A stretch of 35,362 bases of DNA. Origin: a virus. The translations under genes and the position numbers were made by a program. Position 1 is the first letter of the stretch; each line of letters begins with the position of its first letter. The DNA is taken from the IMG/VR virus record IMGVR_UViG_3300008110_000469, positions 1 to 35,362 of that record. One strand, written 5' to 3'. Below are positions 7,646 through 29,042 of the stretch, piece by piece. The notes under the pieces are model-generated. The model was given only the letters and a program-made list of their open reading frames with translations. It had not been told where the DNA came from and ran no database searches.

Positions 7646-8095
7646 ATGCCAACATATGTAGGTTTCAGTACAATTAACGCTAATAAGCCCCGCTCTACTA
7701 ATTTGCCAGCAGGTATTGCAGGTGGTGTAGGTTCTATGGTACAACCAGTCATTCCCGGCAAAAAGTACAGATTAGTTGATGCACAATTGGTTATACAAGA
7801 TTTCATTAACGCATTGAATATTCAACAGGGTCAAAAAGTAGGTAATCCGGGATATGGTACAACTCTTTGGAGTTTTGTTTTTGAACCAAATACATTTGAT
7901 GTACAAAATAAATTAGAAACAGAAATCAGACGAGTTGCTAATCAAGATCCAAGAATGATAGTCAATACAGTCAGCGCATATCCACAAGAAAATGGTATTT
8001 TAATAGAAGTTGAACTAGCAGTAGCACCGTTTAATAACGCACAAATTTTAAGTGTTTTCTTTAATAATAGTACCAATACAGCAGTAATTCAATAA
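7646..8095 (+). CDS. gp25: Baseplate wedge protein gp25-like
   Basis: This 149-residue protein has the gp25/lysozyme-like wedge fold signature: VDAQLVIQDFINALN (residues ~44-58), then NPGYGTTLWSFVFEP (67-81), then an I/V-x-x-x-x-x-DPRM segment (DPR at 101-103, equivalent to the EPR core motif of gp25), and closing strands GILIEVELAV. In T4, gp25 (132 residues) forms the sheath-initiator side of the wedge and is not an active lysozyme. The ATG at 7646 has AGGA seven bases upstream. It lies between gp5 and gp6, the usual neighbourhood in this phage group. Confidence 0.88.
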   Translation: MPTYVGFSTINANKPRSTNLPAGIAGGVGSMVQPVIPGKKYRLVDAQLVIQDFINALNIQQGQKVGNPGYGTTLWSFVFEPNTFDVQNKLETEIRRVANQDPRMIVNTVSAYPQENGILIEVELAVAPFNNAQILSVFFNNSTNTAVIQ

Positions 8096-11100: not shown

Positions 11101-11530
11101 TGGATCACTAAATGATTACAAAATGTTAAGTGATAGTATTATACTTAACAGTGTAGTGTTTTTACCATTGTTTGGTCCTAAAGCACCTGTACAATTAAGA
11201 GGCACTGTTAAAGTTATTAAAGCAAGTAATACTAATGCAAGTGATAGTGAAATTCGTAGTGCAGTTCTCTCTGCTATGAATACCTATTTTAGTATTAACA
11301 ATTGGACATTTGGTGACACGTTTTACTTTAGCGAATTAAGTGCATATTTACATGCACAAGTAGGTGATTTAATTAGTTCTGCTGTGTTAGTTCCAAATGA
11401 CCCAACAATGAGTTTTGGTGATTTGTATGAAATTAAAGCGGCACCATATGAGATATTTGCTAATGGAGCAACAGCTAATGATGTTGTTGTGATAGCGGCA
11501 CTTACTCCAGCTCAATTACAGATAGCATAA
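8150..11530 (+). CDS. gp6: Baseplate wedge protein gp6-like
   Basis: The protein has 1126 residues. Its first ~130 residues are strongly typical of gp6 in marine T4-like phages: a DWKAIYQTFREADFRSYDYE stretch, then FIDYIRVYYPETFNDYIESS, an EFIALMDVMAFMGQGLAFRS helix, ENFIDTAERRDSVVKLANLV and YTPKRN. T4 gp6 (660 residues) forms the iris dimer that joins wedges to each other; this version is much longer. The added central part (nt ~9500-10900) is beta-rich and probably an insertion or expanded arm. The C-terminal segment near 11140-11530 (VFLPLFGPKAPVQLRGTVKV, then helices and LVPNDP) resembles the gpJ/gp6 core end. The start has only a weak AAGAGA-type ribosome site. Confidence 0.85.
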   Translation: MATSSRQSALFGVNDWKAIYQTFREADFRSYDYETLRKSFIDYIRVYYPETFNDYIESSEFIALMDVMAFMGQGLAFRSDLNARENFIDTAERRDSVVKLANLVSYTPKRNLAGQGYIKVVSIQTTENITDLNGFNLSNQTVLWNDPANVNWLEQFNTIINATLINSQRIGRPGNTAQISGIKTDEYAINIPPTTLPIVPFTAVVDNQSMNFELVSSTTLNEDYVYEIPPAPSGRMNMAYRNDKLGYGSPNTGFFFYFKQGILQNFDFNLEQQISNQVVDIDIQGINNTDTWLYQLSTDNSSTTTRTLWNQVENVYADAYLQTENSVRRIFSVGSRFNDQVSYVFGDGVFSEIPVGTFRAYVRAGNALTYTIDPTEMQNLSVSISYISRVGRTETLTLGLELQTPVSNAQARETLANIKQRAPARYYTQNRMVNGEDYNNFPYTLYSSIIKSKAINRSSVGVSKSLDLLDPTGKYSSTNSFANDGGIYQNSTNGSTLLTITTSGDIITFLTDTLGALLSDNRARQYYIQTYTRYPINTASGDGTVYWQEQTVDANSITGYFFNINGSANTPIPVGTYSTYNMKYATKGAMIKFIAPSGYYFSETNRLIAGIASPSDKSYVWTTVLNVVGDGYNNGEGAFSNGLGPITLNGYIPQGAIASTILPVFDNSLPNIVIQECIVRMELNQNFSLIFDNSLTIAQDRWSIGAYNASNYFVNFQSLGNNRYSISYRSLAYYFGSVADTRFTYETGKLVYDPFSGKILQDFVKVLATNTQPGSNYPLATPVQASIIGQTVESDGYVNDFQVEIASIDVNDRTIVSNPDFFTEVTGYVNGNTNIGIYAFFELIQDAVNLSREQLIPSSDVVYQYATKTQIEVVKYEYPEGQVFYAYTDNLFYTTIQDQTVNTLFYIVTPQPQYSMQPGRQGLQFQYRHNSNNTTRIDPATTNIIDLYVVTQAYYTAYQNWLQDTTGTVPEPDKPTINELTQSYGSLNDYKMLSDSIILNSVVFLPLFGPKAPVQLRGTVKVIKASNTNASDSEIRSAVLSAMNTYFSINNWTFGDTFYFSELSAYLHAQVGDLISSAVLVPNDPTMSFGDLYEIKAAPYEIFANGATANDVVVIAALTPAQLQIA

Positions 11531-11556: not shown

Positions 11557-14500
11557 ATGGCAACAAGAATAAGAACATTAAATTTTCTACCTGAAATATT
11601 TAAAACAACAACTAACAGTCAATTTTTAAATGCTACTTTGGATCAAATAGTAGATCAGCCTAATACCAAAAAGATTGAAGGTTACATAGGTAGTAGATTT
11701 GGATATGGAGTTAATGCTAAAAATTATTATGTTACTGAGCCTACAAAAGTTAGAACCGATTATCAACTTGATCCAGGAGTAACATTTCTTAAAAAAGACA
11801 CTAGCACAGCACAAGATTTTATAAGTTATCCGGGTATAATTGATGGTTTAAAATTAGAAGGTGCTGTAGTTAATGATAATAATAGATTGTTTACTAGTCA
11901 ATTTTATTCTTGGGATAGTTTTACTAACTTAGATAAGATTATTAACTTTAATCAATATTATTGGATTCCTGAAGGTCCTGAAGCAGTAACTGTTAGTACA
12001 GAAACTGTATATAATGCAACTGATTATATTGTTACTAGTACTTCAAATGGTTATCTTATAACCGCTGATGGTGCAAGCCAAGGCACTACTAACCCTTCAC
12101 TTATTTTATTACGTGGTGGTACATATCGATTTAACGTTGACCAAAATAGTCAATTTTGGATTCAAGGTGCACCAGGCGTAACTGGCGCAGATCCAACACA
12201 GCCTAACGTATCTACTAGAGATATATTAGGTGTTTCTAATAACGGTGCAGAAACTGGTGTTGTAGAATTTACTGTGCCTTATAAAAATGCACAAGACCAA
12301 TATAATTTCCCAGGGAATAATCGTGTAGATTTAGTTACAACGTTACCTTATGATTCAGTTAACGGAGTATTAGTTAGTGAATTAACAAACGGCATAGATG
12401 GTATTACCTCATTAAATGGTCTTACATTAATGTTTTATAATAACGGTAACATCTCTGTTATAGAAGCAGGTGACTTTGTAATTGGTAATACTTATAAAAT
12501 TAATACGATTGGTACTACTGATTTTACATTGATAGGTGCAACAACAAATACAGTTGGTGAATCTTTTATTGCTACTGGAGTAGGTACTGGCACTGGAACA
12601 GCAATTGGTTTAACTGGTTATGTGTCAAAATTTTATGATACTACATTATATGATGAAGAAACAAGCGCATCAGTTGCACCAGACGGCGGTGCTCCATACA
12701 CTCCTCCAGGAGATGATTTAAACTTTGCAAACTTTGAAGGTGGATATTACACAGATATTGCTTCAACATTTTATACAATTACATATGAAGGTGATCCAAC
12801 TGATCCTGTTATTAGATTAGTTGATTCTGGTACTATTCCATCAGAAGAAAGAATTACAGCTAATTTTGGTACTCAGTGGATTGGTAGATCATTTTATAGA
12901 AACACAAGTGATACTATATCTTTAATTCCATATCTAAGTGCTATACTTGATACCTTATACTATCAAGACGGAACATCAGGTAACAAACTTGGTACTATTA
13001 CTTTGATTTCAAGTAATACTACTAATCGTATTAATATCCTTACTGATATTATAGGTAAAGCAAATTACACTTCTCCAAACGGTGTTGTGTTTACTAATGG
13101 ATTAAAAGTAATATTCTCTGGAGACATATATCCATCTAGTTATGAAAATATTAGATACTATGTTGAAGGAGTAGGTACTGCTATTGAATTGATACCGGTT
13201 ACCACTTTAATTGCGCCAGAACCATTCACATCAGGCACATATATACCATTTGATACAACTCCGTATGATATAGGAAATTATGATAGTAACTTATATATTC
13301 CAGTTACTCCTGATTATATTACAATTTCTAGAAATAGTATTGATCAGAATGCATGGTCAAGAAGTAATCGTTGGTTTCACATTGATGTAATTAATGCTAC
13401 TGCTGAGTATAACAATAACCCTGCACTAGCTACTATTTACGCTACTGCCAATAATAAAGCCAAACGTCCTATCATTGAATTTTATCCTAATTTACAATTA
13501 TTTAACTCTGGTATAGCAGGCAAAGCGCCAATTGATTTTATTGATTTTAGAACATCAGATGCTTTTACCCAAGTAGTTGGACAAGAAAATTATTATCCTG
13601 ATGTTGAAGTATATACAGGTTATACAGCAACAGTCAATGCATTATTAGTTGCCGGCACTAGTACTACAATCACTGTTCCTGCATCTAGTGTTACCGGTGC
13701 ATTTCAAGTTGGACAATACGTAAACGATAGTACTAATGTTTTACCTAGAAATAGTCAAATTACTGCTATAACTGGTACAACTACATTAACACTAACAGTA
13801 ACTTGGATTGGATCACAAACAGTTGCTACTGGCACTAATGCATCATTAATTGCTAATGATACCAATAACGATAGTTTTGCATTATTTGATGGTGCAAGAA
13901 TTGTATTTGCTGCCGATACTAATTTACCAGTTCGAAATAAAATATATATTTCTCACTTCTCAATTACAGCCGACGGTAGCACTCCAGTATTGACTTTAAC
14001 TGAAGCAGAAGATGGACTTGTTTTACCAAATGAACAAACAGTAACGTTTAGAGGATATAACTATCAAGGCATGGACTTTTACTTTGATGGTATTGATTGG
14101 ATAGAAGGTCAACAAAAAACTACAGTAAATCAACCACCATTATTTGATATATTTGATGATAATGGAATTAGTTTTGGTAACAGTGATATATATTTGGGCA
14201 CTTCATTTGCGGGTAATAAATTATTCGCATATGGCATAGGTACTGGAAATGATGATGTTGTATTAGGATTCCCATTACTATATAGTTCAGTGGATAATGT
14301 AGGTGATATCAGTTTTGATGTAACATTAAATTCAGCATCATTTAACTATGTAAGTGGTACTACTCCAATAACTCAAAAAGTTAATACAGGATATGTTTAT
14401 AATTACAGTAATTTAGAAACACCAATTAGACAATTAGGATGGCAAACAGCTATTGCACCTAGTGTACAATATCAGATATTTGAATTTAATTATTACGCTA

Positions 14501-17500
14501 CTAATCCAACTACCACATATACTTGTGACATTGCTAAATTAGCGGATGCTAACAGCGCATGGCCTACTATACAATTATTTGTAAATAATGAAATTCAATA
14601 TGATACAGATTATACAGTAGTAACTACGGATACTCAAACAATAGTTACTTTTGCTGTACCTAATCCATTAATAGATACGGTAATTGAAATTTTATTATTA
14701 AGCGATCAAGTAAGCGAAACAGCGTATTATAGCATACCGATTAATTTAAATAATAATCCTTTAAATGCAGATGTTACTGTAGTTAATGTAGGTGATATTC
14801 GTGGCCAATATCAAAGTAGTTTTTATAATAATCCTAATACTACTGGTGAAGTATTTGGATCAAATAATTATCGTGATTTGGGTAATATGGTACCATATGG
14901 TAACAAGATTATTCAAAATAGTGCAAGTTTGGTATTACCGGGTGCGTTCTTGCGTAAACAAAATCATAATTTATTCAATGCATTATTGTATAATAGCAGA
15001 GAGTATATTACATTTAAAACTTTATTAGTAGATACAGTTAATACTAGTGATTATAATATTCGTTTGTCTCCTGCAACAATGTTAGATGATGCATTGGATA
15101 AAATAACTGACTCAAAAACAGATAGTAATAGTTTCTTTTGGAGTGATATGTTGCCTAGTAAAGCGGCATATATCACAAACACCTATAGTTTTGCTAATGA
15201 ATTAGATGTAAGTATATATCCATTAAGTAAAATATATAATTTTGCTACAGCTAATTATAATAGTGTATTAGTTTATTTGACTACATCAAATGGAATAGTT
15301 ACTCAATTAATTCGCAATGTTGATTATACAGTAAGTGCAGATAGCCCGTCATTGACGGTTACCTTAACATTAGCTCCAGGTGATCAAATTACAATTAAAG
15401 AATATAATCAAACATATGGTAGTTATGTTCCTAACACTCCTACTAAATTGGGATTATATCCATCAACAATACCTGATGTAGTATTAGATACTGCATATAA
15501 TCCACCTACATACTTTATTGTAGGTCATGATGGTTCATATAATAAATTATATGGCGATTATATTGACGGTAAATTAATTGATTTTAGAGACCAAGTTTTA
15601 TTAGAATATGAAAAACGCATATACAATAATTTAAAATTAAGTAATACTATTCCAATACAAGAATATGAAATATTACCCGGTTTCTTTAGAGATACTGATT
15701 ATAGTTATGATGAAATATTACAAATTTATTCAACTAGTTTCTTAAATTGGGTTGGTCAAAATAGAATTGATTATAAAAAACAATTCTATAATGCTACAAA
15801 TCAATATACATATAATTATAATCAAAGTGGTAATAAGATAAATCGACAAGTTATTCCTCAGGGCTATTGGAGAGGTATATACGAATATTTTTATGATACT
15901 AGTAATCCAGATACTAGTCCATGGGAAATGTTGGGATTTACTGATAAGCCTACGTGGTGGGAAACACGATATGGACCGGCACCATATACAAGCGATAACT
16001 TAGTATTATGGAATGATTTGGCACAGGGTATTGATTGGAATAACGGAATTCCAATTGTTATACCACAATCAATACGCCCGCAATTATTACAAGTATTGCC
16101 GGTAGATAGTGCCGGTAACTTAGTATCTCCTTTTGTTTCTATCGTAGGTAACTATAGTAATACATCATTTAACCGTGATTGGAAAGTAGGAGACGTTGGT
16201 CCTGCAGAATTTTCATATCGTAGAAGTAGCAGTTGGCCTTTTGATTTGATGCGTATACTAGCATTAACTAAACCTGCAGAATTTTTCAACTTAGGTGTTG
16301 ACATTGACAACTACAAATATAATGAAGAATTTAATCAATATTTGGTTAACAATCGTAGTCATTTAGTTATAAGTGATGTAGAAATTTACGGTAACGGTAC
16401 TGCTAAAACCAGTTATATCAATTGGATAGTTGACTTTGAAAAACAAGTTGGGGTTGATGCAACAACTAATATTACTGACTTGTTAGATAACATTGATGTT
16501 CGTTTAGTATATCGGTTAGCCGGCTTTAGTGATAAAAATTTATTAAATTTCTATGTAGAAAAATCTACAGCAAATAGTAATAATAGTAGTTTATTGATAC
16601 CTGATGAGAGTTATCAAGTATTGTTATACGATAATCAACCATTTGATAAAATTGTTTATAGTGGTGTTGTAATACAATTAACTAATACAGGATATAAAGT
16701 ATTTGGTAATAGTCAAACTAATGCATATTTTAACATATTGTTACCAAAAATTAACGGTAATTATGAAAGAGTATCTGTTCAAAGTCTAAGCGTTCAAGTA
16801 GCTAAAGATTATTATCCTACACCTACAGTTGTGGCATATGGTACTGAATTTGTTACTGTACAAGAAGTAGCACAATTCTTAGAAGGATATGGTAGATATT
16901 TAGCAAGCCAAGGAGTATTGTTTGATCAAATCGAATCTGGTTTAGAAGTAAGTTGGAGACAGATGGTTGCTGAATATTTATATTGGGCTCAATCTGGTTG
17001 GGAATCGGGCAGTATTGTTAATATTAATCCTGCATCTAACTTAATTTCTATTAATAAAGATAGTTACATTGTACAACCTTTAACATTACAAAGACAAAAT
17101 TTTATATTAAATCAAAATTTATATCCAATACAAAATGTTGATTTAAGTATTATACGTGATGGTACATTATTTACTGCACAACCATTAAATCAAGGTGATA
17201 CCGTTGCTTATGGTCAATTTAATATTAGTAATTTTGAACACGGTATTGTATTTGACAATGTTACATTGTTTAATGATATAATTTATAATTTAACAACTGG
17301 ATTGCGTCAAAATCGTATTACTGTTCGTGGTGCTAAAACAGCAGAATGGAATGGTACAGTTGATGCTCAGGGCTTTATTCTTAATCAAGATAATATTCTT
17401 GATTGGAATAAAACAGTAAAATATACAACTGGCAGTATTGTTAAGTATAAAAATAAATATTGGATTGCCCTCACTATCATTCAACCAAAAGAAATATTTG

Positions 17501-20500
17501 AAGAACGTGAATGGAAACAAACAGATTACAACGAAATACAAAAAGGATTATTACCTAATACAAGTACACGTTCTTATGAAAGCACAATTTACTATGATGT
17601 AAATCGTGCTAACTTAGAAAATGATGCTGACTTACTAAGTTTTAGCTTGATCGGATACCGTCCACGTGATTATTTGGCTCTTGCTGATTTAACAGATATT
17701 ACACAAATTAATGTTTACAAAAACTTCATTAAGAACAAAGGTACATTGAATGCAGTAAGTGCATTTAGAGGTGCAAACTTACCACAAGGTGGTATTGATT
17801 ATGAAGTATATGAAAACTGGGCTATCAAAGCTAGCGATTTTGGCGGTGTATTAAACAGTAATTTTATTGACTTTAAATTAAATCAAAATCTGTTAACCGG
17901 TAACCCAAGTATTGTTGGTTTAACTAATGGAGTATCAACTGTTGGGGTACAACAAGAAGTCCCATTATATAGCCTATATAACTATGGAAGACCAATAACA
18001 TCTACTGATGTATTACCTACATTACCCACAGATACTCCTACCCAATTGTTTCCTGATGCCGGATATGTTAACTTTAACGATATTCGTATTGCCGCATATT
18101 ATTATAATAATCTAACAACTAGTACATCACCACGTGGCGTTCTAACACCACTATCACAATTATATGTAGGACAATATATTTGGTTAGCTGATTATCAAGG
18201 CACCTGGCAAGTAATGACGCCGGTAAGTTTAGGTTCAATTATATTTGCTAAAAATAATTTGAATGGTACAGCAACTATAACATTTAGTAATTCACATGGA
18301 TTATCAAAATATCAACCGTTTGCTATTGTAAACTTCAATGATAGTTTAAATGGTTATTATATTGTTAATACTATATTAGACCTTAACAGTGTATTAGTTA
18401 ATGTCACATTGGATCCGGCAATCACCTCAGTTACAGGACAAGGGATTGGATTCAAATTTCAATCACAGCGTGTTGCTAACCCAAGCGATATTATTGATTT
18501 GCCATTGTTGAATACGGAATTTGTAAAAAATAAAGTATGGGTGGATACAAACAATGATGGAAGTTGGGCTGTATATCGTAAGAGTATTAACTATGGATAT
18601 GATTCTGAGTTAGTTAAAGATGGATCAGAAACATTTGGTAGTGCTGTAGCATATACTGACAATTTAGGATATTTAATAGGTGATGCTGATGCAGGTATTG
18701 TTTATAGATATTCTTTTAATGAATTGTTTAATAACTATGAATTAGTACAAACTATTACAGGTACTGCATCATTTGGTACAACAATTACATATACTGATGA
18801 CATATTTGTAGTTTCACAACCTACTGGAACTCCTCGAGTATACGTATATCAATTAGTTACTAATACTTTGATTAATCAATTAGTTCCACTAAGTTCAGCT
18901 ATCATTGATCCGATACCGCCGGAGCCATGGTCTCCTTATTATATAGCCGCACCAGGTGGGGTCACTAATTGGGGTAGTGCATTAGCAATATCCGGCGATC
19001 AAAATTGGTTATATATTTCTGATACCGTAAACAACAGTGTACATGCATATTTTAAATCACAAGTAACAGGAACATATCAAGCCAGTTATATCATTGACGG
19101 AGATGCATTAGGGTTGACCACAGCAGGTGATAACTTTGGTTATTCAATCTCAACTGATTATTACGGTGATACTGTTGTTATTGGAACCCCAAATAAAGAT
19201 TATAATATAAATGTTGATAATTGGGGCTATACTTATGTGTTTGATAGAACAGTTCAAAATTTTGAATCACAATATACAACTACTGCACTTATCCCGCAAT
19301 CTTTTACATTAGCGTGGACACCTACGACAGTAACACAAACTGCGACAGCAACAGACGGAACAACAGAAAGAATTACAGTAACTAGTTCTGCGGGTTTTAG
19401 TGTTGGTGATCCTGTTGTATTTTCTGGTACCTTATTATCTGCAGGAGCAATTGCAGCCGATACCGTGTATTATGTACTTGATAAACCAACAGGTACTACT
19501 TTTAGAATTGCTGCCACACGTGATTCAATAACTCCAATTAACTTAGTATCTGATACAGGTAGTATGACCTGTACAATACAAACTACTCCATTATTAATTA
19601 ATGTTAATGGCACTATAATTACTGATAATAATTATGCAGTTATTGGTTCAACATTGCGTGTATATCGTGCATTAAATGCAGGTGACATAATAAATGTGAG
19701 TGGTAATAATTTTGTATTATCTCAAACCCTTACTACAGAAACTACACCTAAAATTGGGGTACAGTTTGGTATAAGTGTAGACACCACTACGTATGCTACT
19801 GAATTATTAGTAGGTGCACCTTTTGAATTGAACAGTCAAAATCAAGAGGGTGCTGTTTATCGTTATACTAATGGTGGTGGAAAATATGGCATGGTTGTTG
19901 GCATTAACGATTGCAATTTAACAACTAATAGAACTATATTAATTAATGGTTATATGGTAGTATTGCCTGCAGGAAATGCAACATTAGTTGCCAATGCAAT
20001 TAATCAAGCAAATATAACTAATGTTCATGCAGCCGCAAGTTTTGGTAAATTAATTATTAGTTTAATAGATAGTTCGTTAGCATTAGTTAATGATAAACTA
20101 AATGTAACTGCATTGGCGACTGCTACGTGGGCAGAATTAGGATTTAATACTTATACTCAAACACAGGTCATTAATGATCCGCACGTACAAGGAACAACTC
20201 AGTTTGGTAATGTAGTTAAATTTAATGAATTCGACTCGTTTGTTGTTAGTGCACCAACCGCTACTCGATATGAAGCAACAACATTTGATTCTACGGATGA
20301 TGAAGATTATGACAATGACACTTTATTTGATAATAATGCAACTCAATGGATAGATTCGTATAATAATGCCGGTGCAGTATATATGTTTGATTACCTATCA
20401 GTTTATAATGAATCATTAGTAAATTGTGGTAATTTTGTATATGCACAAAGTGTTAATGATATTAATGAAACATATGGTAGTCAACCAATGTATGGACATG

Positions 20501-22347
20501 CAATAGAGTTTAATAACTCACATGTTGTTATTGGAACACCGGATTTCAAACCAGACACAATAGCAGGTCAAATTACAACTTATATTAATACTACCGGTGA
20601 AACTGATTGGAGTGTATATAGAAATTCAAATGCAATTGTTGACACTAGCAGGCTTCAAGGTATTCAGTTATATAGTGCTATAACTAATAACACATTAGAT
20701 AATTTAGATTATATTGATCCGTTACAGGGTAAAATATTAGGTTCAGTAAGACAAAATATTGATGTAGTATCTAATGTTGATCCAGCTGGATACAACTCTC
20801 CTAACACCAATAAAGGTGCAATGGTTTGGGGAGCAACACAGGTTGGCCAATTATGGTTTAATACAAGCACTACTAAATTTGTTAACTATCATCAAAATGA
20901 TGTTGTATATAACAGTAAGTGGTGGGGACAAGTATTCCCGGGTAGTGATGTAACTGTATATAGTTGGATAACAAGTGATGTTCCTCCAATATCATATGCT
21001 GGCCCTGGCACTGTGTTTGATTTTGATTCGTATGCAATTGAATATACATTAAATGCCAGTGGCGTATTAACTCCAATATATTTCTATTGGGTACGTAACA
21101 CAAATATAATATTCACTAAACGAGGGAAAACATTAGCTGATAGCATTATTCAATCTTATATTGCATCACCGATTAATTCAGGTATTAGTTACTTTGCACC
21201 AATTGAACAAGATATTTTTGCGTTATACAATTGTGGTAATAATATTAATGCAAACGATACTGTATTACATATTGGTTTTGGTACAGGCACAAATGATGAT
21301 GTTTCACATAGTTTGTATAATTTAATTCGCACTAACTATCCTGATGACTTCTTACCGGGATTGCCTACTACAAACAGTCTTGATTTACCGGAATCATTGT
21401 ATGATAGAATGTTAGATAGTTTGTGTGGTGTAGACGAATCTGGTGCAGTAGTCCCTGACCCATATTTACCTAAACCAGTTCAATATGGCATCTATGCACG
21501 TCCAAGACAAAGTTTCTTTGTTAATAGATTTTTAGCATTGAAAAATTATTTGACTTATGCTAATGAAATATTAGCACAATATCCTATAGCAGAAACACGT
21601 AGGTCATTATTCTTGTACACAGAAGGTGCAACAAATCTTTCAACTGACCCAGTATACAATACTGATCCAACAAGTCCGTATTATAGTGTTAACCCATGGA
21701 CAGGCCCAATTCTACCGTTCTATCAAACAACAGATTATTGGACATTTATTAATTGGTGGGCAACTGGATATGACGATAATACTAAATCAGCATTACAAGT
21801 TCCTGTATACGCTGATTTATCAACAATTAATGCTACAGCAGGATTGATTGTAACTGTTAACACTAACGGTGATGGCAAAACAGAAACTTATGTTTATACT
21901 AATTTGGATACATGGGAACGTATTGGTTTACAAGACGGTACTATTGCATTTAGTAGCAATTTATGGGATTATGCAACTGCTAGATTGGGATTTGGTGATA
22001 ATTTCTTTGATACTACACCGTATGATACATATCCATCACAAGAGACCCGTAGTATTGTAAGGGCGTTGAATGAAGAAATTTACACCAATGATTTATTAAT
22101 TTATAGAAATAAAAGTTTAATTTTATTATTTGAATTCATTCAAAGTGAAGCTATTGAATCTCAAAATTATTTGCCATGGTTAAATAAAACATCATTTATT
22201 GATGTAGCACATACTATTCGTGAATTGCGTCCAATACAGGTATTTCAATCAGATAATCAAGATTTCTTATCCGGTTATATTAATGAACAACAGATCCAAT
22301 CTGGCAAACAGCTCCATATACTGAATGGTTTAACAATTATGGATTGA
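11557..22347 (+). CDS. Giant gp7-like baseplate wedge/peripheral structural protein with FG-GAP propeller
   Basis: The protein has 3596 residues, an AGAGAGAAA ribosome site and its ATG at 11557. The N-terminus (RTLNFLPEIFKT, then TLDQIVDQPNTKKIEGYIG, then LFTSQFYSWDSF and NFNQYYWIPEGP) matches large structural proteins that follow gp6 in marine T4-like phages. Those are often treated as gp7 equivalents, though T4 gp7 has 1032 residues. Conserved-looking blocks follow: SRSNRWFH near 13360, WWETRYGPAPYT near 15955 and SSWPFDLMRILALTKPAEFF near 16228. Modules include a tDFTLIGA...GTGTA unit (~12500-12605), a carbohydrate-binding-like segment (~17400-17560), FCCH-like modules (~18240-18470 and 19360-19585), an FG-GAP propeller (~18540-20620) and a QLWFNT motif near 20846. 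The C-terminal ~200 residues (FIQSEAIES, then KTSFIDVAHTIRELRP) look like a conserved wedge-binding end. Its stop overlaps the TTG start of the next gene. Confidence 0.68.
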   Translation: MATRIRTLNFLPEIFKTTTNSQFLNATLDQIVDQPNTKKIEGYIGSRFGYGVNAKNYYVTEPTKVRTDYQLDPGVTFLKKDTSTAQDFISYPGIIDGLKLEGAVVNDNNRLFTSQFYSWDSFTNLDKIINFNQYYWIPEGPEAVTVSTETVYNATDYIVTSTSNGYLITADGASQGTTNPSLILLRGGTYRFNVDQNSQFWIQGAPGVTGADPTQPNVSTRDILGVSNNGAETGVVEFTVPYKNAQDQYNFPGNNRVDLVTTLPYDSVNGVLVSELTNGIDGITSLNGLTLMFYNNGNISVIEAGDFVIGNTYKINTIGTTDFTLIGATTNTVGESFIATGVGTGTGTAIGLTGYVSKFYDTTLYDEETSASVAPDGGAPYTPPGDDLNFANFEGGYYTDIASTFYTITYEGDPTDPVIRLVDSGTIPSEERITANFGTQWIGRSFYRNTSDTISLIPYLSAILDTLYYQDGTSGNKLGTITLISSNTTNRINILTDIIGKANYTSPNGVVFTNGLKVIFSGDIYPSSYENIRYYVEGVGTAIELIPVTTLIAPEPFTSGTYIPFDTTPYDIGNYDSNLYIPVTPDYITISRNSIDQNAWSRSNRWFHIDVINATAEYNNNPALATIYATANNKAKRPIIEFYPNLQLFNSGIAGKAPIDFIDFRTSDAFTQVVGQENYYPDVEVYTGYTATVNALLVAGTSTTITVPASSVTGAFQVGQYVNDSTNVLPRNSQITAITGTTTLTLTVTWIGSQTVATGTNASLIANDTNNDSFALFDGARIVFAADTNLPVRNKIYISHFSITADGSTPVLTLTEAEDGLVLPNEQTVTFRGYNYQGMDFYFDGIDWIEGQQKTTVNQPPLFDIFDDNGISFGNSDIYLGTSFAGNKLFAYGIGTGNDDVVLGFPLLYSSVDNVGDISFDVTLNSASFNYVSGTTPITQKVNTGYVYNYSNLETPIRQLGWQTAIAPSVQYQIFEFNYYATNPTTTYTCDIAKLADANSAWPTIQLFVNNEIQYDTDYTVVTTDTQTIVTFAVPNPLIDTVIEILLLSDQVSETAYYSIPINLNNNPLNADVTVVNVGDIRGQYQSSFYNNPNTTGEVFGSNNYRDLGNMVPYGNKIIQNSASLVLPGAFLRKQNHNLFNALLYNSREYITFKTLLVDTVNTSDYNIRLSPATMLDDALDKITDSKTDSNSFFWSDMLPSKAAYITNTYSFANELDVSIYPLSKIYNFATANYNSVLVYLTTSNGIVTQLIRNVDYTVSADSPSLTVTLTLAPGDQITIKEYNQTYGSYVPNTPTKLGLYPSTIPDVVLDTAYNPPTYFIVGHDGSYNKLYGDYIDGKLIDFRDQVLLEYEKRIYNNLKLSNTIPIQEYEILPGFFRDTDYSYDEILQIYSTSFLNWVGQNRIDYKKQFYNATNQYTYNYNQSGNKINRQVIPQGYWRGIYEYFYDTSNPDTSPWEMLGFTDKPTWWETRYGPAPYTSDNLVLWNDLAQGIDWNNGIPIVIPQSIRPQLLQVLPVDSAGNLVSPFVSIVGNYSNTSFNRDWKVGDVGPAEFSYRRSSSWPFDLMRILALTKPAEFFNLGVDIDNYKYNEEFNQYLVNNRSHLVISDVEIYGNGTAKTSYINWIVDFEKQVGVDATTNITDLLDNIDVRLVYRLAGFSDKNLLNFYVEKSTANSNNSSLLIPDESYQVLLYDNQPFDKIVYSGVVIQLTNTGYKVFGNSQTNAYFNILLPKINGNYERVSVQSLSVQVAKDYYPTPTVVAYGTEFVTVQEVAQFLEGYGRYLASQGVLFDQIESGLEVSWRQMVAEYLYWAQSGWESGSIVNINPASNLISINKDSYIVQPLTLQRQNFILNQNLYPIQNVDLSIIRDGTLFTAQPLNQGDTVAYGQFNISNFEHGIVFDNVTLFNDIIYNLTTGLRQNRITVRGAKTAEWNGTVDAQGFILNQDNILDWNKTVKYTTGSIVKYKNKYWIALTIIQPKEIFEEREWKQTDYNEIQKGLLPNTSTRSYESTIYYDVNRANLENDADLLSFSLIGYRPRDYLALADLTDITQINVYKNFIKNKGTLNAVSAFRGANLPQGGIDYEVYENWAIKASDFGGVLNSNFIDFKLNQNLLTGNPSIVGLTNGVSTVGVQQEVPLYSLYNYGRPITSTDVLPTLPTDTPTQLFPDAGYVNFNDIRIAAYYYNNLTTSTSPRGVLTPLSQLYVGQYIWLADYQGTWQVMTPVSLGSIIFAKNNLNGTATITFSNSHGLSKYQPFAIVNFNDSLNGYYIVNTILDLNSVLVNVTLDPAITSVTGQGIGFKFQSQRVANPSDIIDLPLLNTEFVKNKVWVDTNNDGSWAVYRKSINYGYDSELVKDGSETFGSAVAYTDNLGYLIGDADAGIVYRYSFNELFNNYELVQTITGTASFGTTITYTDDIFVVSQPTGTPRVYVYQLVTNTLINQLVPLSSAIIDPIPPEPWSPYYIAAPGGVTNWGSALAISGDQNWLYISDTVNNSVHAYFKSQVTGTYQASYIIDGDALGLTTAGDNFGYSISTDYYGDTVVIGTPNKDYNINVDNWGYTYVFDRTVQNFESQYTTTALIPQSFTLAWTPTTVTQTATATDGTTERITVTSSAGFSVGDPVVFSGTLLSAGAIAADTVYYVLDKPTGTTFRIAATRDSITPINLVSDTGSMTCTIQTTPLLINVNGTIITDNNYAVIGSTLRVYRALNAGDIINVSGNNFVLSQTLTTETTPKIGVQFGISVDTTTYATELLVGAPFELNSQNQEGAVYRYTNGGGKYGMVVGINDCNLTTNRTILINGYMVVLPAGNATLVANAINQANITNVHAAASFGKLIISLIDSSLALVNDKLNVTALATATWAELGFNTYTQTQVINDPHVQGTTQFGNVVKFNEFDSFVVSAPTATRYEATTFDSTDDEDYDNDTLFDNNATQWIDSYNNAGAVYMFDYLSVYNESLVNCGNFVYAQSVNDINETYGSQPMYGHAIEFNNSHVVIGTPDFKPDTIAGQITTYINTTGETDWSVYRNSNAIVDTSRLQGIQLYSAITNNTLDNLDYIDPLQGKILGSVRQNIDVVSNVDPAGYNSPNTNKGAMVWGATQVGQLWFNTSTTKFVNYHQNDVVYNSKWWGQVFPGSDVTVYSWITSDVPPISYAGPGTVFDFDSYAIEYTLNASGVLTPIYFYWVRNTNIIFTKRGKTLADSIIQSYIASPINSGISYFAPIEQDIFALYNCGNNINANDTVLHIGFGTGTNDDVSHSLYNLIRTNYPDDFLPGLPTTNSLDLPESLYDRMLDSLCGVDESGAVVPDPYLPKPVQYGIYARPRQSFFVNRFLALKNYLTYANEILAQYPIAETRRSLFLYTEGATNLSTDPVYNTDPTSPYYSVNPWTGPILPFYQTTDYWTFINWWATGYDDNTKSALQVPVYADLSTINATAGLIVTVNTNGDGKTETYVYTNLDTWERIGLQDGTIAFSSNLWDYATARLGFGDNFFDTTPYDTYPSQETRSIVRALNEEIYTNDLLIYRNKSLILLFEFIQSEAIESQNYLPWLNKTSFIDVAHTIRELRPIQVFQSDNQDFLSGYINEQQIQSGKQLHILNGLTIMD
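18540..20620 (+). other. Candidate seven-bladed FG-GAP (integrin-type) beta-propeller domain in the gp7-like protein
   Basis: Seven blade-like segments follow the FG-x-S-V/I...V-G/S-x-P...G-x-V-Y-x-Y/F pattern: FGSAVAYTD near 18634, FGTTITYTDD near 18772, WGSALAISGD near 18970, FGYSISTDYYGD near 19135, FGISVDTTTYATELLVGAPF near 19768, FGNVVKFNE near 20206 and YGHAIEFNNSHVVIGTPDF near 20491. Two insertions interrupt it. One of about 140 residues after blade 4 contains an FCCH-like module; one of about 100 residues after blade 5 is unidentified. Similar W-x-V-Y-R strands flank the array (SWAVYRKS before, DWSVYRNS after), which would fit velcro closure. Such propellers usually bind proteins or glycans. 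Confidence 0.6.
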
Positions 22348-25300
22348 GCATTACCGGTGTTAATGATTATCAAATTACCGTATTAGCTTCTTATGTTGCC
22401 TTAAACACTAGTGAGTTTGCAGTAGATAATGCATTTGGTTTCCCTATCAATGGAACAATATTAATAGGTGATGAATTAATAGGATACTCAAATGTAAATA
22501 GAGCAACAAATACACTTAGTGGGTTGACAAGAGGGGTAAATGGCACACCAATCACAGTACACATTCCTGGTGAAATTATTACAATTAATTTGCCGGCTGT
22601 TTTGTTATTAAATGGTGGTAGAGGCTATATTGAACCCCCTAGAGTAACTGCGTATATTGACACAAGTATATATCCAGAACCAAGAACACCTGCTGTATTC
22701 CAAGCAGTAATGAATTTAGATTCAATATTACGAATAGATGTTATTAATCCTGGATCTGGTTATGCAGTTTTACCAGAAATTATAATTGATTCATCAATCT
22801 CAATATCTTTTGCTTCAACAGAAGTAAGCACATTGACCAATACCATTGTGTTATATTCACCGTTTTTACAAACAGGTGATTTAATAAAATATACAGTGGG
22901 AGCCAACACTACACCAGTTGGTGGGTTAGACATAGATCAATATTATTATGTAAACGTATTAGAAACTTCACCGGCATTTGTTGTAGCATTGTATACTAAT
23001 TATGGTGATGCAATTAATGACAATGATAGAGTAGTATTTTACAATACAGGATCTGGTGCTAATAACACATTAAATGTTAGTGCTAGAGCAAGTTGTGTTT
23101 CAACTTCTACTCCAATAAGAGAAAATCAAATTACATTACGTTTTGATAGAACAACTTATACATCACAAGTTACTGATTGGCAAAGTGGAGCTTTTTATGG
23201 TAGTTACTATGCCGGTACTTATAACAATAGCGAAAGAGTATCTAGTTCTAGTATTACTATTGCACCACCTGAATTTGGATATAATCCACCAATTGATTCT
23301 ATATTAGCAAGTGCGCAGGGTGCAACTTTTGAAGTAGAAGGTGTTACTAATGATGAAGTGTTGACATGGAGTTCTTTAACAAGAAATGTCTCTGCTATTA
23401 GTACCATTAATAACCAATTAACCATTACAGCAGTAGATGGTGGCGCATCAATTATTAATAGTGATGACCCGGCAATAACTAATCCTACTATTGGTTTTTA
23501 TATTGGCATGCCAGTCAAGTTTTCTGGATCAATATCTGGTGGTAGCCCTAGTATTACCGTAGGCACTACATATTATATTAAAACACTAGTTGATGGAAAT
23601 AAGTTTACTATATCAGCTACTATTACTAGTGGAGTACCCGGAGCTGTTGTTTCAATGTCTGGCACAGCCGTTGGATCTGCTGGATTAACGTGCTATGTAG
23701 GTGAAGTTACTAATACAGCAGTAGTCACACTTTTCTATCCAGGCATATTAGATACAACTGCAACTACCAGTACAATTAATACATTAACTATTCCATTAAA
23801 TCCTAGCAATTTGGGCGGAACATCTGGATTCTATACTGGATTGCCAATATTCTTTACTGGTAATGTATTTGGTGGAGTTATTGAAAATGAAGAATATTAC
23901 ATTACCACTGTAATAAATTCAACAACATTTACTATGTCAACATCTGCTGATCCAATAACAGTAGATGTAACTGCAACTGTTTCTACCGGTAATTTAATTA
24001 CATGTACAAATACAGCATTACTTTCTATTAATGATCCAATTATATTTACTGATATTGTTGTAGCTAGTGGTGCAACTAATATTGTTAGCGGAACAACATA
24101 TTATATCAGTCAAATAGTTAATAGTACTCAATTTACTATTTCTATAGTAACTAATGGTGGACCATTTAATCCAGGTACATCTACCTTGACAATGCTTGGT
24201 ACAAATCAAAAAGGTACTGTTCAATTAACAACTGCAACAGGTAATATGACATGTAATGTTGGATTACCGGTAAGCCCAGGACAAATAACTGGACAACAGT
24301 TTACATTTTATCCAACTAATAGTTTAGAAGACACACCTTACATAGAATTATCAGGTACTAACGGTAATCTTATACAACGTAATATTGTAAGTGCATTAGC
24401 ATCAAGTGATTATTTTGGTATAACAAGTGCTAGTGGTGGATTAACAAACATTTATGTTGGCATGCCAATAAGAGTGAATATTGCATATGGTCCTTTAAAT
24501 ACTACTACTACCTATACCATATCAGATTACGGAACAGTATCTACTGAAGTAACAGGAACGTCATCTAGCACTAATCTACTAACATGTGATGATACTACGG
24601 GATTTTATGTTAATATGCCTATTGAATTCACAGGCTCTGCAATAGGCGGCACAGTTTTAAATACAGTATATTATATAAAAACCGTTAACAGTTCAACAAC
24701 ATTTAGTATAACAGAATCATTAGGAGGAAGTGTACTAACTTTATCAACTGATAACGGTTCTATGACCTTAACCGGTGAACCGTTTATTAAGTTAACAGGT
24801 GTAAATGTAGCAACAGATGTTTCTACCGCTTGTGTTATGACACAATATCCAAATCCATCTATTCCTCCTACATTTACAATAGGATGGAAATTAGGTGGAT
24901 ATAATGTAGAAATTGTTGATACAGGTGAAGGATATGCAATTAACAATACTATAACTATATCGGGTAATTTATTAGGTGGAACAACTCCTGCAAATAATTT
25001 GGTTATGACAGTTAATACAATTGGATCTACTGGTAATATTCAATCTGTGATAGTATCAGGTAATCCTTCAGAAACGGTACAACAATATTACTTAAAAGTT
25101 ATTAGTGCATCTGAATGTGAAGTATATAGTGATTCATTATTGCAAATTCCAGTTACTGGTATTGGCTTTCCGTACAGTGCAGGATCTTATGCATTCTTAC
25201 CAGAACCTTTCTACTTCAATCAAAGTATTGTTAAGTATAACAACAGAGTTTATGAATGTATTATTAGTAACAATGATACAGAGTTTATATTTGGTAAATG

Positions 25301-28300
25301 GGAATTATTGCAAAGTGATAGTAGAAAATTAAATGCATTAGATAGAATTATTGGTTATTATCAACCAACTGTCAATATGCCCGGGGTAGATTTAACACAA
25401 TTAGTTGATGGCATCACATATCCAAATAGTACATATTTGGGTAATGCATTTGCTCCAGCTGATACGTTTACTTTAGATACAGATTTGCAAGATACTCCGT
25501 TTAGTCCTATACAACTAAATACTACCTCAATAGTATGGAATGGTGTAAATTATTTTGCACCTGCAAATACACCAACATACTCTGATATAACTAGTAGTAT
25601 TAATGGAGTTACATGGTTATCTAATAAATTAGCAAATCAACCATTAGCATTAACTGACATTGTATATGCTGATTCAAAATATGTAATGACCAGTCAAAAT
25701 CAAGCAACTCCTATCTTTGTAAGTAATGATGCTATCGTTTGGACTACTACTGGATTAACAACCGGTACTGTTAATATACAAAACACTAGTTTAAATAGTA
25801 TTGCATATTTTAATGGGATATACGTTGCAGTTGGTGATGTGATTGTATCAAGTGCTAATGCATATGACTGGGTTCAGCGATACAATTTTACTAGTGTAGA
25901 ATTATATGGAATATCTGCTATATCTATTAACAATTTTGATGGCTTTATTGCTGTAGGTACAGGTCCTGATTATACAGTTATTCCTACTGCATCGCAAAGT
26001 GTTATATTAAAGAGTTTAGATGGAATAACTTGGACAAACATAACACCATCTGCGTCAGCAGAAACATTATACGGTGTATCTAGTGGTAACAACACCATTG
26101 TTGTAATAGGTAATAATGGAACAATCTTTACAAGTATTAACGGTAGTAACTGGTCTGATATCAGCACCGGTTCTGCTAACTTAAGAGACGTAGTGTATTC
26201 AACTAGTCTTGGATTATTTGTTGTTGTAGGTGAAACAGGTTTTATTGCAACAACGGACGGCAGCACCTGGAATGTAAGAACATCAGGTACTAGTCAAAAT
26301 CTAAACAGTGTAATTTGGAATGATGATGACGGTGAATTTATAATAACCGGTAATAATAATATTATACTTAAGAGTACTGACGGTACAACTTGGACTAGTA
26401 GTAATATCTTTATCACAGATCCTACAGTATATGATGTGCAAGGTGATGCATTTACAGCAGGTTACGGCCCAGAAGAACTGGTGCCAGGTGTAGTATCTGA
26501 TAATTTAACAATGATCGTAACCACACGTCCTGGCACAAACTGGGATGCTGACGTATATGCACACGTGGGTTATAATGTAGTTAGTTATGAAATTGCTCCT
26601 GTAGGATCGCAAGTAACGTTTAGTTTTGATGGATTTGCTCAAACTCCAGCACAAATAGCAGTATATCAAATAAATGGAACTACTAATTTGGGTACGTTAT
26701 TGATTGGACCTAATATTGATAGTATAACACCAGAATATACAGTTGATTGGATTAATAAAACAATTACATTGGCATCAATATTGCCAGCTAGCGATTCTGT
26801 AAACATATACATATACGAAGTAGGTAACGGTGATCAATTGGAAAAATCTAATTCACAAACTGATCCTATCAGAAATAATGATGTAACTGGCTTCAATGAG
26901 ATTTATTTAAATTGTAATTATTCTGATACTATAACTAGTGGTTCTGGTGTAATTAGACCAGGAACAGAACCTATTAATGTTATAGTAACTGAGACGGAAA
27001 GCATATCTGATACAATATTATGTGATGATGTTAGTAACTTCACACTAAATGACCAAATAATATTTGAAGGTGATGTGTTTGGTAATATTGTTGCTGGAAC
27101 TCATTATTATGTTAAAACCATAAGTACTATAACAAAGAAAATTACTATATCTGATAGTATTGTACTTGGTGTGGCAGGTCCTGCATTCCAATTAACCACT
27201 GACACTGGATTAATGGATATCATTATACAAACCGGTAGTGGCGCAATATGGTCGGATCCTATAGTGTATCATAATGGTACTAAACTTATATTAGGACATA
27301 CTAATCGTGTAACACAAACTAATAGTGGCACAAACACTATTGTATGTAATACTACTAATGGCATGGCAGTCAATGAACCAATTGTGTTTAGTGATACTAT
27401 GTTTGGTAATGATATTACACCTCAAACAGTATATTATATTAAAACAATTGTTGATATAAATGAATTTACCATCAGCACGACCCCAGGAGGATCAGTTTTA
27501 ACATTAGGTGATGCAGTAGGTGGTGCAATAGCAATTGCTAATGATTATGCATTTGGTATAGCGGATAATGGCATTTCAGCAAAAATGATTTTTGCGGCAC
27601 AATATGATGAAACAACCGATTATTTAACTTATACAGTGTTTGGAGAAACATATCCAATTCAATATGGTTATACTATTCCTGAAACACAGTTATTTGAAGG
27701 AGACGGCACAACAAATACATTTGTATTAGACAATTATGTAGGTGGTGATAATCCGTTAAATGCAGTAGTAGTAATTAACGGATTGCGAGTAGATACATCT
27801 ACCTATACTATATCATTTGGACCGGACACAATTGTATTTGGAACAGCACCAAGTAACGGTGATATTATTTCGGTAACTAGTTATAATTTAACAGACCGTC
27901 AGTATTTCAACACACAATATGATTTAACAGGGGCAACCGTATCTGCAATTAGTTATATTAATAATGCTACTACACCAGTACAAGTTACTACTGCAACTGT
28001 ACATGGATTAACTACAGGTGATCTTGTAAGAATAGACGGTGTTTTAGGATCAATACAATTAAACAACAATACATATTACGTTGATGTTATAAGCACTACT
28101 GTATTAGATTTGTATTATGATGACACATTGCTTGATCCTGTTATTTCAGTATCATCATATACCGGTGGCGGATATATTTGGTTAGATGAAACATTTACAG
28201 TAGATAGTGATTGGGAACAAGATAATGTTGATAGATTATGGGTAACAATTAATGGTTATCGTGTACCATCAAGTTTATTGTATTTAAATGCTAATAATAA

Positions 28301-29042
28301 TTTAAGTATTCTTGCGCCAATCGATCCAATTACGGATAGTATAACTATTACAAGTATGATGCCAAGTGCTACTCCAAATCAACAGGTATATTTACAAAAT
28401 GTTAATAAGAGTAATACTCCTTCTGTATTCAGAGCAAATACCAATACTAGAACATGGTTAGTTGCGCCGTTATATGATACTGATGTAACAATTTATGTTT
28501 CAGATGTTACTAAAATAACGGACACAATTGTACAAGATACGACGGCACCTAGTCCGTCTATCGACGGTTTATATTATATTGGATTGAATGCTGATAAAAA
28601 TATCATTTCTCAAGTGATAGTGTATAATGAAACAACAAGTAGTTATATAGATCCTGCAAATTATACTGTTGTAATACAAGATATTGCGCCAACATTGGCC
28701 ATATCTAATCCTACAACTCCTGTAATTACAGCAGGGGACAATTTAATAATTACTACAATTGAGGGCAATTTGGTATATATTAACGGTGAACAAATCAAAT
28801 TTACTACAGTTGATTTGTCTGCTAATACTTTATCTGGATTACAACGAGGAACTAATGGAACAGGTGTACAGACGTATATTCCACTATATTCTGAGGTATT
28901 TGGAATATTGTCCAATAATTTACAGCCTCCGACAGACTATACACAAACATGGAATAGCTATGTTTATAATGTAGTAGACGGAGATCCATTACAAATTAGT
29001 GATACAGATCCTGCAATTTTCTTAAATACAGACGTATCTTAA
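22344..29042 (+). CDS. Giant modular structural protein with BNR/Asp-box propeller, TTG start
   Basis: The protein has 2232 residues and starts at a TTG inside TTGA, overlapping the previous stop by four bases. No closer in-frame ATG exists (the first is ~120 codons in), so coupled reinitiation at TTG is the best call. Residues ~20-70 and ~2135-2185 are two copies of a module ending LSGLTRGVNGT / LSGLQRGTNGT with an IGDEL / INGEQ core, common in phage tail proteins. Between them lie repeated GxGY-type strands (GGRGYIEPP, GSGYAVLPE), seven or more FCCH-like modules, a carbohydrate-binding-like segment (SIVKYNNRVYEC...GKWELL) near 25216, and a GYGPEELVPG block near 26461 typical of marine phage structural proteins. 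A BNR-type propeller is inserted before that block. It ends in GDPLQIS-type sequence. It occupies the gp8 position but shows no gp8 likeness I can see; probably baseplate periphery. Confidence 0.6.
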   Translation: MSITGVNDYQITVLASYVALNTSEFAVDNAFGFPINGTILIGDELIGYSNVNRATNTLSGLTRGVNGTPITVHIPGEIITINLPAVLLLNGGRGYIEPPRVTAYIDTSIYPEPRTPAVFQAVMNLDSILRIDVINPGSGYAVLPEIIIDSSISISFASTEVSTLTNTIVLYSPFLQTGDLIKYTVGANTTPVGGLDIDQYYYVNVLETSPAFVVALYTNYGDAINDNDRVVFYNTGSGANNTLNVSARASCVSTSTPIRENQITLRFDRTTYTSQVTDWQSGAFYGSYYAGTYNNSERVSSSSITIAPPEFGYNPPIDSILASAQGATFEVEGVTNDEVLTWSSLTRNVSAISTINNQLTITAVDGGASIINSDDPAITNPTIGFYIGMPVKFSGSISGGSPSITVGTTYYIKTLVDGNKFTISATITSGVPGAVVSMSGTAVGSAGLTCYVGEVTNTAVVTLFYPGILDTTATTSTINTLTIPLNPSNLGGTSGFYTGLPIFFTGNVFGGVIENEEYYITTVINSTTFTMSTSADPITVDVTATVSTGNLITCTNTALLSINDPIIFTDIVVASGATNIVSGTTYYISQIVNSTQFTISIVTNGGPFNPGTSTLTMLGTNQKGTVQLTTATGNMTCNVGLPVSPGQITGQQFTFYPTNSLEDTPYIELSGTNGNLIQRNIVSALASSDYFGITSASGGLTNIYVGMPIRVNIAYGPLNTTTTYTISDYGTVSTEVTGTSSSTNLLTCDDTTGFYVNMPIEFTGSAIGGTVLNTVYYIKTVNSSTTFSITESLGGSVLTLSTDNGSMTLTGEPFIKLTGVNVATDVSTACVMTQYPNPSIPPTFTIGWKLGGYNVEIVDTGEGYAINNTITISGNLLGGTTPANNLVMTVNTIGSTGNIQSVIVSGNPSETVQQYYLKVISASECEVYSDSLLQIPVTGIGFPYSAGSYAFLPEPFYFNQSIVKYNNRVYECIISNNDTEFIFGKWELLQSDSRKLNALDRIIGYYQPTVNMPGVDLTQLVDGITYPNSTYLGNAFAPADTFTLDTDLQDTPFSPIQLNTTSIVWNGVNYFAPANTPTYSDITSSINGVTWLSNKLANQPLALTDIVYADSKYVMTSQNQATPIFVSNDAIVWTTTGLTTGTVNIQNTSLNSIAYFNGIYVAVGDVIVSSANAYDWVQRYNFTSVELYGISAISINNFDGFIAVGTGPDYTVIPTASQSVILKSLDGITWTNITPSASAETLYGVSSGNNTIVVIGNNGTIFTSINGSNWSDISTGSANLRDVVYSTSLGLFVVVGETGFIATTDGSTWNVRTSGTSQNLNSVIWNDDDGEFIITGNNNIILKSTDGTTWTSSNIFITDPTVYDVQGDAFTAGYGPEELVPGVVSDNLTMIVTTRPGTNWDADVYAHVGYNVVSYEIAPVGSQVTFSFDGFAQTPAQIAVYQINGTTNLGTLLIGPNIDSITPEYTVDWINKTITLASILPASDSVNIYIYEVGNGDQLEKSNSQTDPIRNNDVTGFNEIYLNCNYSDTITSGSGVIRPGTEPINVIVTETESISDTILCDDVSNFTLNDQIIFEGDVFGNIVAGTHYYVKTISTITKKITISDSIVLGVAGPAFQLTTDTGLMDIIIQTGSGAIWSDPIVYHNGTKLILGHTNRVTQTNSGTNTIVCNTTNGMAVNEPIVFSDTMFGNDITPQTVYYIKTIVDINEFTISTTPGGSVLTLGDAVGGAIAIANDYAFGIADNGISAKMIFAAQYDETTDYLTYTVFGETYPIQYGYTIPETQLFEGDGTTNTFVLDNYVGGDNPLNAVVVINGLRVDTSTYTISFGPDTIVFGTAPSNGDIISVTSYNLTDRQYFNTQYDLTGATVSAISYINNATTPVQVTTATVHGLTTGDLVRIDGVLGSIQLNNNTYYVDVISTTVLDLYYDDTLLDPVISVSSYTGGGYIWLDETFTVDSDWEQDNVDRLWVTINGYRVPSSLLYLNANNNLSILAPIDPITDSITITSMMPSATPNQQVYLQNVNKSNTPSVFRANTNTRTWLVAPLYDTDVTIYVSDVTKITDTIVQDTTAPSPSIDGLYYIGLNADKNIISQVIVYNETTSSYIDPANYTVVIQDIAPTLAISNPTTPVITAGDNLIITTIEGNLVYINGEQIKFTTVDLSANTLSGLQRGTNGTGVQTYIPLYSEVFGILSNNLQPPTDYTQTWNSYVYNVVDGDPLQISDTDPAIFLNTDVS
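22836..28180 (+). repeat. Repeated FCCH-like beta modules in the 2232-residue protein
   Basis: At least seven protein-level copies of a ~65-residue module occur, near 22836, 23411, 23776, 23991, 24570, 27010, 27333 and, more divergent, 27995. Shared pattern: G-F/L-x-V/I-x-x-P-I/V-x-F-x-G, a short loop with GG, YY-I/V-K-T, then F-T-I-S and a hydrophobic strand ending M-x-C/L. The copy near 27995 (HGLTTGDLVRIDG...NNNTYYV) best matches the E1 ubiquitin-activating enzyme FCCH domain pattern seen in phage tail proteins. The copies differ strongly in DNA, so this is an old expansion. Confidence 0.65.
25521..26403 (+). other. Candidate BNR/Asp-box (Ycf48/sialidase-like) beta-propeller domain
   Basis: About seven repeats of roughly 40 residues carry the Asp-box pattern S-x-D/N-G-x-T-W: SINGVTW, SNDAIVW (degenerate), SANAYDW (degenerate), SLDGITW, SINGSNW, TTDGSTW and STDGTTW. 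Each is preceded by a strand such as GLFVVVGETG or TIVVIGNNG. It lies between a DTDLQDTPF segment and a TVYDVQGDAFTAGYGPEELV segment that I expect to be contiguous in related phages, so it looks inserted. No catalytic sialidase residues can be claimed. Confidence 0.7.

Follow-up and report, generated by a model that had tools for sequence, protein, structure and literature searches.

FG-GAP propellers are already known, as are other kinds of propeller in phages. In the integrin alpha chains, calcium-binding DxDxDG loops lie in the A-B loops of the later blades, the alpha-I domain is placed between blades 2 and 3, and the C-D loops are found on the face opposite to that of the D-A and B-C loops. 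In contractile-tailed phages, host specificity is usually sought in the tail fibres. Other phage beta-propellers include the T7/SU10 nozzle, the K1F endosialidase, phAss-1 and the Kelch proteins of CBB (PMC10607447, PMC5259590). Like the propeller analysed here, these are beta-propellers in virion proteins; however, they belong to other propeller families or occupy other virion sites, and none is an FG-GAP propeller in a baseplate protein. Our literature search, made in a library that includes a minority of the subscription papers, retrieved no paper that links phage tails or baseplates to a propeller of the FG-GAP or integrin-like type.

The window, that is, the whole stretch of DNA analysed (35,362 nucleotides of the IMG/VR virus record IMGVR_UViG_3300008110_000469), encodes a giant protein, ORF1, in which a propeller occupies the turn of a scaffold hairpin. 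The integrin-type fold and this insertion site, taken jointly, appear almost certain. The features concerned are the following:

7646–8095, + strand: gp25-like baseplate wedge gene
8150–11530, + strand: gp6-like baseplate wedge gene, directly upstream of ORF1 (phrog_10646, 4.5e-258)
11557–22347, + strand: ORF1, giant baseplate-region virion protein of 3596 aa (phrog_10938 family), carrying the propeller
18532–18585, + strand: hairpin of the scaffold, KVWVDTNNDGSWAVYRKS; its last strand, b, precedes the insertion and is kept in propeller-less relatives
18586–20604, + strand: seven-bladed propeller of the FG-GAP_2/integrin-alpha type, both inserts included (residues 2344–3016)
18589–18621, + strand: strand at the N terminus that would close blade 7 as its outer strand D (DSSP of the model, topology inferred)
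18634–18759, + strand: blade 1
18772–18888, + strand: blade 2
18970–19098, + strand: blade 3, the C-D loop of which holds an extra module in L018, L024 and L026–L029
19135–19266, + strand: blade 4, strands A–C
19282–19683, + strand: insert 1, a fast-evolving and probably cassette-swapped domain within the C-D loop of blade 4
19687–19731, + strand: blade 4, strand D (from the model)
19765–19872, + strand: blade 5, strands A–C
19873–20151, + strand: insert 2, a moderately conserved single-copy domain within the C-D loop of blade 5
20152–20175, + strand: blade 5, strand D (from the model)
20203–20451, + strand: blade 6, low model confidence
20257–20370, + strand: conserved acidic motif TTFD..DD...NDT.FDNN.T...D in the B-C loop of blade 6
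20491–20589, + strand: blade 7, strands A–C
20605–20643, + strand: scaffold strand c DWSVYRNSNAIVD, after the insertion
22344–29042, + strand: ORF2 (2232 aa), the next ORF after ORF1

The genes upstream of ORF1 match families of gp53-, gp25- and gp6-type baseplate wedge proteins and a hub/lysozyme family, the gp numbers being our reading of PHROG labels and gene order. ORF1 itself is matched by the profile of phrog_10938, a virion structural protein, at 3.1e-254, with the best stretch at residues 1004–1948. Its homologue in PA5oct, gp355, is marked in its record as a virion protein confirmed by mass spectrometry. This profile match, together with the gp25- and gp6-like genes preceding ORF1, bears out the preliminary description of the locus, which had placed the propeller in a baseplate protein. 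Cultured jumbo phages encode a homologous giant protein at the same place, after gp6, and ORF1 follows the gp6-like gene as T4 gp7 follows gene 6. Homology to T4 gp7 gave no detectable signal, with hhalign aligning 19 columns at an E value of 0.11 and 39 columns at 0.52, and with no match of the ORF1 core profile in the PDB; the 'gp7 position' of ORF1 is therefore a matter of synteny only. The phrog_10938 proteins of RaK2, PA5oct, GAP32, SCTP-2 and Atu_ph07 share the scaffold and the place after gp6 but, unlike that of the window, lack the propeller, and the giant proteins of SCTP-2, Phosso and Atu_ph07 carry other long inserts near the site. In SCTP-2 gp140 (L037), residues about 2120–2350, upstream of the same strands, have a LamG/concanavalin-like look by eye, and Pfam matched no such domain there.

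In relatives with contigs covering the region, ORF1 and ORF2 form one ORF of 5.8–6.5 thousand residues, of which ORF2 is the C-terminal half. At the junction (22285–22350), the window lacks about 60 codons relative to these contigs and shifts frame; the break may be a natural split or an assembly error. Residues about 1270–1409 of ORF2 (window 26151–26570) have a weak YCF48/BNR-type match (PSII_BNR, 0.035; Ycf48, 0.019), possibly a second, different propeller in the same polypeptide.

Seven blade starts of the FG/WG/YG type are found at ORF1 residues 2360, 2406, 2472, 2527, 2737, 2883 and 2979. In the region under study (ORF1 residues about 2328–3021, 694 aa), the short FG-type motif occurs 9 times versus 1.06 ± 1.01 in shuffled sequences, and the long FG...GAP motif 5 times versus 0.03, with none of 5000 shuffles reaching either count; ten control windows elsewhere in ORF1/ORF2 contain 0–3 short and 0 long motifs. 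The FG and GAP positions are nearly constant in A1, an alignment of 22 rows. Pfam FG-GAP_2 (PF14312), the sequence family of such blades and here found inside a phage baseplate-region protein, scores 25.0 bits against a cut-off of 23 when the region is scanned alone and 20.8 bits, just under the cut-off, in the whole of ORF1, and it matches all 22 aligned relatives (best, 3.6e-11).

The AlphaFold2 model built on A1 (mean pLDDT 77.6, pTM 0.82) adopts a propeller fold with seven blades, with fair to high confidence for blades 1–5 and 7, poor confidence for the long loop of blade 6 and its surroundings (model residues about 590–660) and low confidence for the strands flanking the propeller; a larger model including the scaffold reached a pTM of 0.48 and was set aside. 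Foldseek against the PDB ranked integrin alphaV first (5.1e-8), and all 50 PDB rows listed by VIA-align were integrin alpha chains, the best with a Z of 36.5 and an rmsd of 2.6 Å over 336 aligned residues (model 30–700). Thus, the seven-bladed FG-GAP propeller of the preliminary description is recovered by the motif starts, the family profile and the predicted structure alike. In the model, the first strand (model 32–41) closes blade 7; strands C and D are separated by insert 1 in blade 4 and by insert 2 in blade 5. Hence, the two inserted domains announced earlier are real, but they sit within blades, in C-D loops, in agreement with the heading of that description and not between blades, where its reasoning put them. 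If the integrin topology applies, the chain ends and both inserts would leave the propeller from one face.

The strands WAVYR (18565–18579) and WSVYR (20608–20622) bracket the blade array, as the preliminary description had it for a near-identical W-x-V-Y-R pair, and both are conserved. Across 18 metagenomic relatives that lack the propeller, the site has the form ...YVD...WTVY-turn-W..xRxQ...VD..., and because these relatives join the same two strands by a short turn, the propeller is regarded as an insertion into an existing hairpin. On this alignment evidence, the two strands are neighbouring strands of the pre-existing hairpin, outside the blade array, with the propeller replacing the short b-c turn, so that the comparison with relatives lacking the region, proposed at the outset, has located the insertion. 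A duplication arising from the insertion event, considered as the origin of the strand pair, was dropped since propeller-less relatives already have both strands. When aligned by blastp with five cultured homologues, the window protein shows collinear matches before and after the propeller and none within it. The anchors are spaced by about 1070 residues in the window; among 12 records, nine have a spacing of 327–446 residues, SCTP-2 has one of 630, and Phosso and Atu_ph07 each have one of about 1650. Long GSGY-type repeats are present between the first scaffold hairpin and the hairpin of the propeller in L204, L206, L209, L295 and L040, a place that reads as a second insertion-tolerant loop. 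It follows from the hairpin comparison that a large domain can slot into a tight turn of a baseplate protein, leaving the scaffold undisturbed.

The domain family of insert 1 is not confined to the propeller: six more copies are present in ORF2, at residues 371–811 and 1545–1743, and L016 encodes 14 copies besides the one in the propeller at the thresholds used. The FCCH-like identity first suggested for insert 1 is unsupported, as Pfam returned no E1_FCCH at E ≤ 1 and matched no known binding domain in the insert; the single E1_FCCH match lies elsewhere, at ORF2 residues 1879–1944 (6.4e-5, under the cut-off). Flagellin_IN, considered for insert 2, is likewise unsupported in the window, where it has no Pfam match; it was found in 1 of 50 distant linkers, at 0.0011. 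The insert-1 allele of L003 carries an extra nested module. A small module, TYxIxxxGTTDF...GxxFxATGxGxGTG, turns up at several positions in the giant proteins, namely, at ORF1 residue 312, nested in insert 1 of L003 and in the blade 3 C-D loop of the six contigs listed above.

The tblastn search of the propeller against 50,697 phage records yielded no match, and none of the 54 pattern matches in bacterial and archaeal genome contigs was a relative. The sites compared derive from 243 loci with both anchors, of which 205 were distinct and 202 remained at 95%. On these 202 sites, the A1 profile scored at least 400 bits in 56 and 100–400 bits in 54. An iterated profile divided them into 163 propeller-like, 21 short and empty, and 18 with something else, and the fraction of 163/202 is not a natural frequency because the IMG/VR sites were drawn from the best 80 matches per query. 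The propeller-like call required a match of the iterated profile spanning at least 300 residues, since this profile also matched 12 of the 21 short sites via scaffold columns. Of the 71 long linkers lacking an A1 match, 50 were scanned with Pfam, which detected FG-GAP_2 in 34, CBM_5_12, by its name a carbohydrate-binding family, in 7 and YHYH in 2. One distant propeller (L246:13415-15952; FG-GAP_2, 3.9e-19) lies in a linker that also has a CBM_5_12 match (6e-7).

On a core tree of 199 of the 203 sites (202 and the window; four with short flanks were left out), built with FastTree and containing several long branches, the propeller label changes 3 times versus a mean of 35.2 for shuffled labels. 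One branch (SH-like 99) sets apart 36 propeller-less rows, including all six cultured ones of the set (L037–L041, L275), from the rest. There are two exceptions on the propeller side: L318, with an empty site, and L358, with another domain, by eye the YHYH one, between the two strands. As judged from the sequences compared, the propeller is clade-bound in a large uncultured group of jumbo-phage-like viruses; on this tree, taken without a root, the label changes may be gains or losses of the propeller. A separate 393-aa protein of Atu_ph07 annotated as hemagglutinin (A0A2L0UZX4) matches the propeller model in BFVD at 1.7e-11, which indicates that the fold also occurs stand-alone in this relative lacking the propeller at the site.

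Blades and inserts differ in how they evolve. Across 18 relatives, mean identity to the window is 0.84 for the hairpin, 0.77 for the core, 0.73 for the right flank, 0.64 for the blades, 0.62 for insert 2 and 0.49 for insert 1. Pairwise identities of the blades correlate with those of the core (Spearman 0.877, 56 rows) in the range seen for scaffold segments among themselves (0.856–0.887); the corresponding values for insert 1 and insert 2 are 0.664 and 0.647, to which the noise of shorter segments contributes. Blades and scaffold are inherited as a unit, and the blades behave as a fixed virion part would. Such tracking speaks for the alternative that the propeller is a constant structural part which docks another virion protein, for example a fibre or the neighbouring wedge, the inserts being passive spacers that diverge neutrally. 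Retention of the propeller in all rows but two on one side of the core tree points the same way, as does the acidic loop of blade 6, which at 0.78 versus 0.64 for the blades is among the best conserved parts, although this conservation is partly ascertained, given that KFNEFDSF, DDEDYDND and DT[LVI]FDNN served as search patterns. A conserved contact or a metal site would most plausibly be sought in this poorly modelled loop. However, the empty site of L318 and the replaced domain of L358 imply that the propeller is dispensable or replaceable, and drift alone would hardly account for the exchange of insert 1 between flanks that stay unchanged. We consider a purely structural role possible but somewhat doubtful.

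The exchange is clearest between L010 and L003, which on either side of insert 1 share 99.8% identity across 10,744 bases and 98.9% across 2,796 bases; strong differences are limited to one block, of 333 versus 498 bases, with the same extent as the insert. More generally, in 53 close pairs, the median identity of insert 1 is 0.60 versus 0.83–0.94 for equally long scaffold windows. Two allele types, A (window, L001, L003, L004) and B, can be told apart; in a set of 14 rows, 12 of which could be scored, the insert-1 tree needs one change between them, the blade tree three and the scaffold tree, which has some weak branches, four. In L014, blades 1–4 are sharply divergent and blades 5–7 are ordinary, and exchange is hence not strictly confined to insert 1. 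Altogether, insert 1 is probably a cassette exchanged between close relatives with its surroundings unchanged.

The same pattern could, in principle, stem from misassembly around a domain that is simply variable, and it is true that the L010 arrangement comes from one 15-kb metagenome contig, and that no other contig among those fetched shows its allele, L050 being identical with this contig. Nonetheless, both junctions lie within that contig, at domain borders; the alternative L003 form is present in four contigs (L003, L031–L033); and the incongruence holds without the L010/L003 pair, as L004 and the more distant L013 carry window-type alleles (A-like in L013, 0.62–0.68). This makes an artefact improbable.

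Returning to insert 1 as an exchanged cassette, its swapping between near-identical phages makes it a candidate host-recognition part and favours an outward-facing, recognition-type role. The explanation that fits best overall, and which we hold to be modestly probable, is that of a conserved propeller platform with an exchangeable, probably surface-recognizing module. The shared exit face of chain ends and inserts suggests that, by analogy with integrin topology, blade 7 would be the tether point of the propeller, which would carry the inserts on its far side. It might then project from the baseplate as a rigid, non-enzymatic platform displaying insert 1 as an exchangeable module that touches the host surface or the surrounding matrix, whereas conserved loops, such as the acidic loop of blade 6, would hold a constant virion partner or stabilize the wheel. 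The chances of this division of labour, with the blades as platform and insert 1 as variable tip, seem about even. That the tip recognizes the host surface is plausible yet more tentative: the CBM_5_12 matches in distant linkers and the replacement in L358 are compatible with a surface role, whereas the faster change of insert 1 could reflect relaxed constraint and, given the six family members elsewhere in the polypeptide, the insert may be a generic stalk or spacer.

Compared with the integrin alpha propellers of alphaL, alphaM and alphaV, the propeller of the window shares seven FG-GAP blades, closure by an N-terminal strand and the presence of domains inserted in the wheel, at about 16% identity. 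The phage inserts occupy the C-D loops of blades 4 and 5, unlike the alpha-I domain of integrins. The calcium-binding DxDxDG loops that the preliminary description proposed to look for are absent, unlike in integrins, from the blade A-B loops in every one of the 22 members, and the sole DxNxDG common among these lies in the scaffold hairpin before the propeller. Consequently, the likeness to the integrin head is one of shape only. An integrin-like calcium-dependent adhesin, with the propeller itself binding the host via its upper face, would agree with the integrin-alpha fold and the acidic loop conserved on the B-C side of blade 6, but is very unlikely considering the lack of calcium loops in the blades and that in most relatives the blades are not exchanged alone and evolve at a rate close to that of the scaffold. 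Nor is the protein a membrane receptor, as integrins are, and in view of its baseplate gene context it is not classed as an integrin.

A widespread, clade-bound propeller with a cassette that changes alone between near-identical phages would suggest a second, overlooked place for host specificity in jumbo phages. A conserved integrin-like wheel that acts as the socket for an exchangeable recognition module, fitted into one of its blades, would be a host-range determinant new to phages, a tentative proposal that we regard as possible but less likely than not. If true, specificity would be changed not at the tip of the tail fibre but in the baseplate, by the swap of a cassette of ~110–165 codons.
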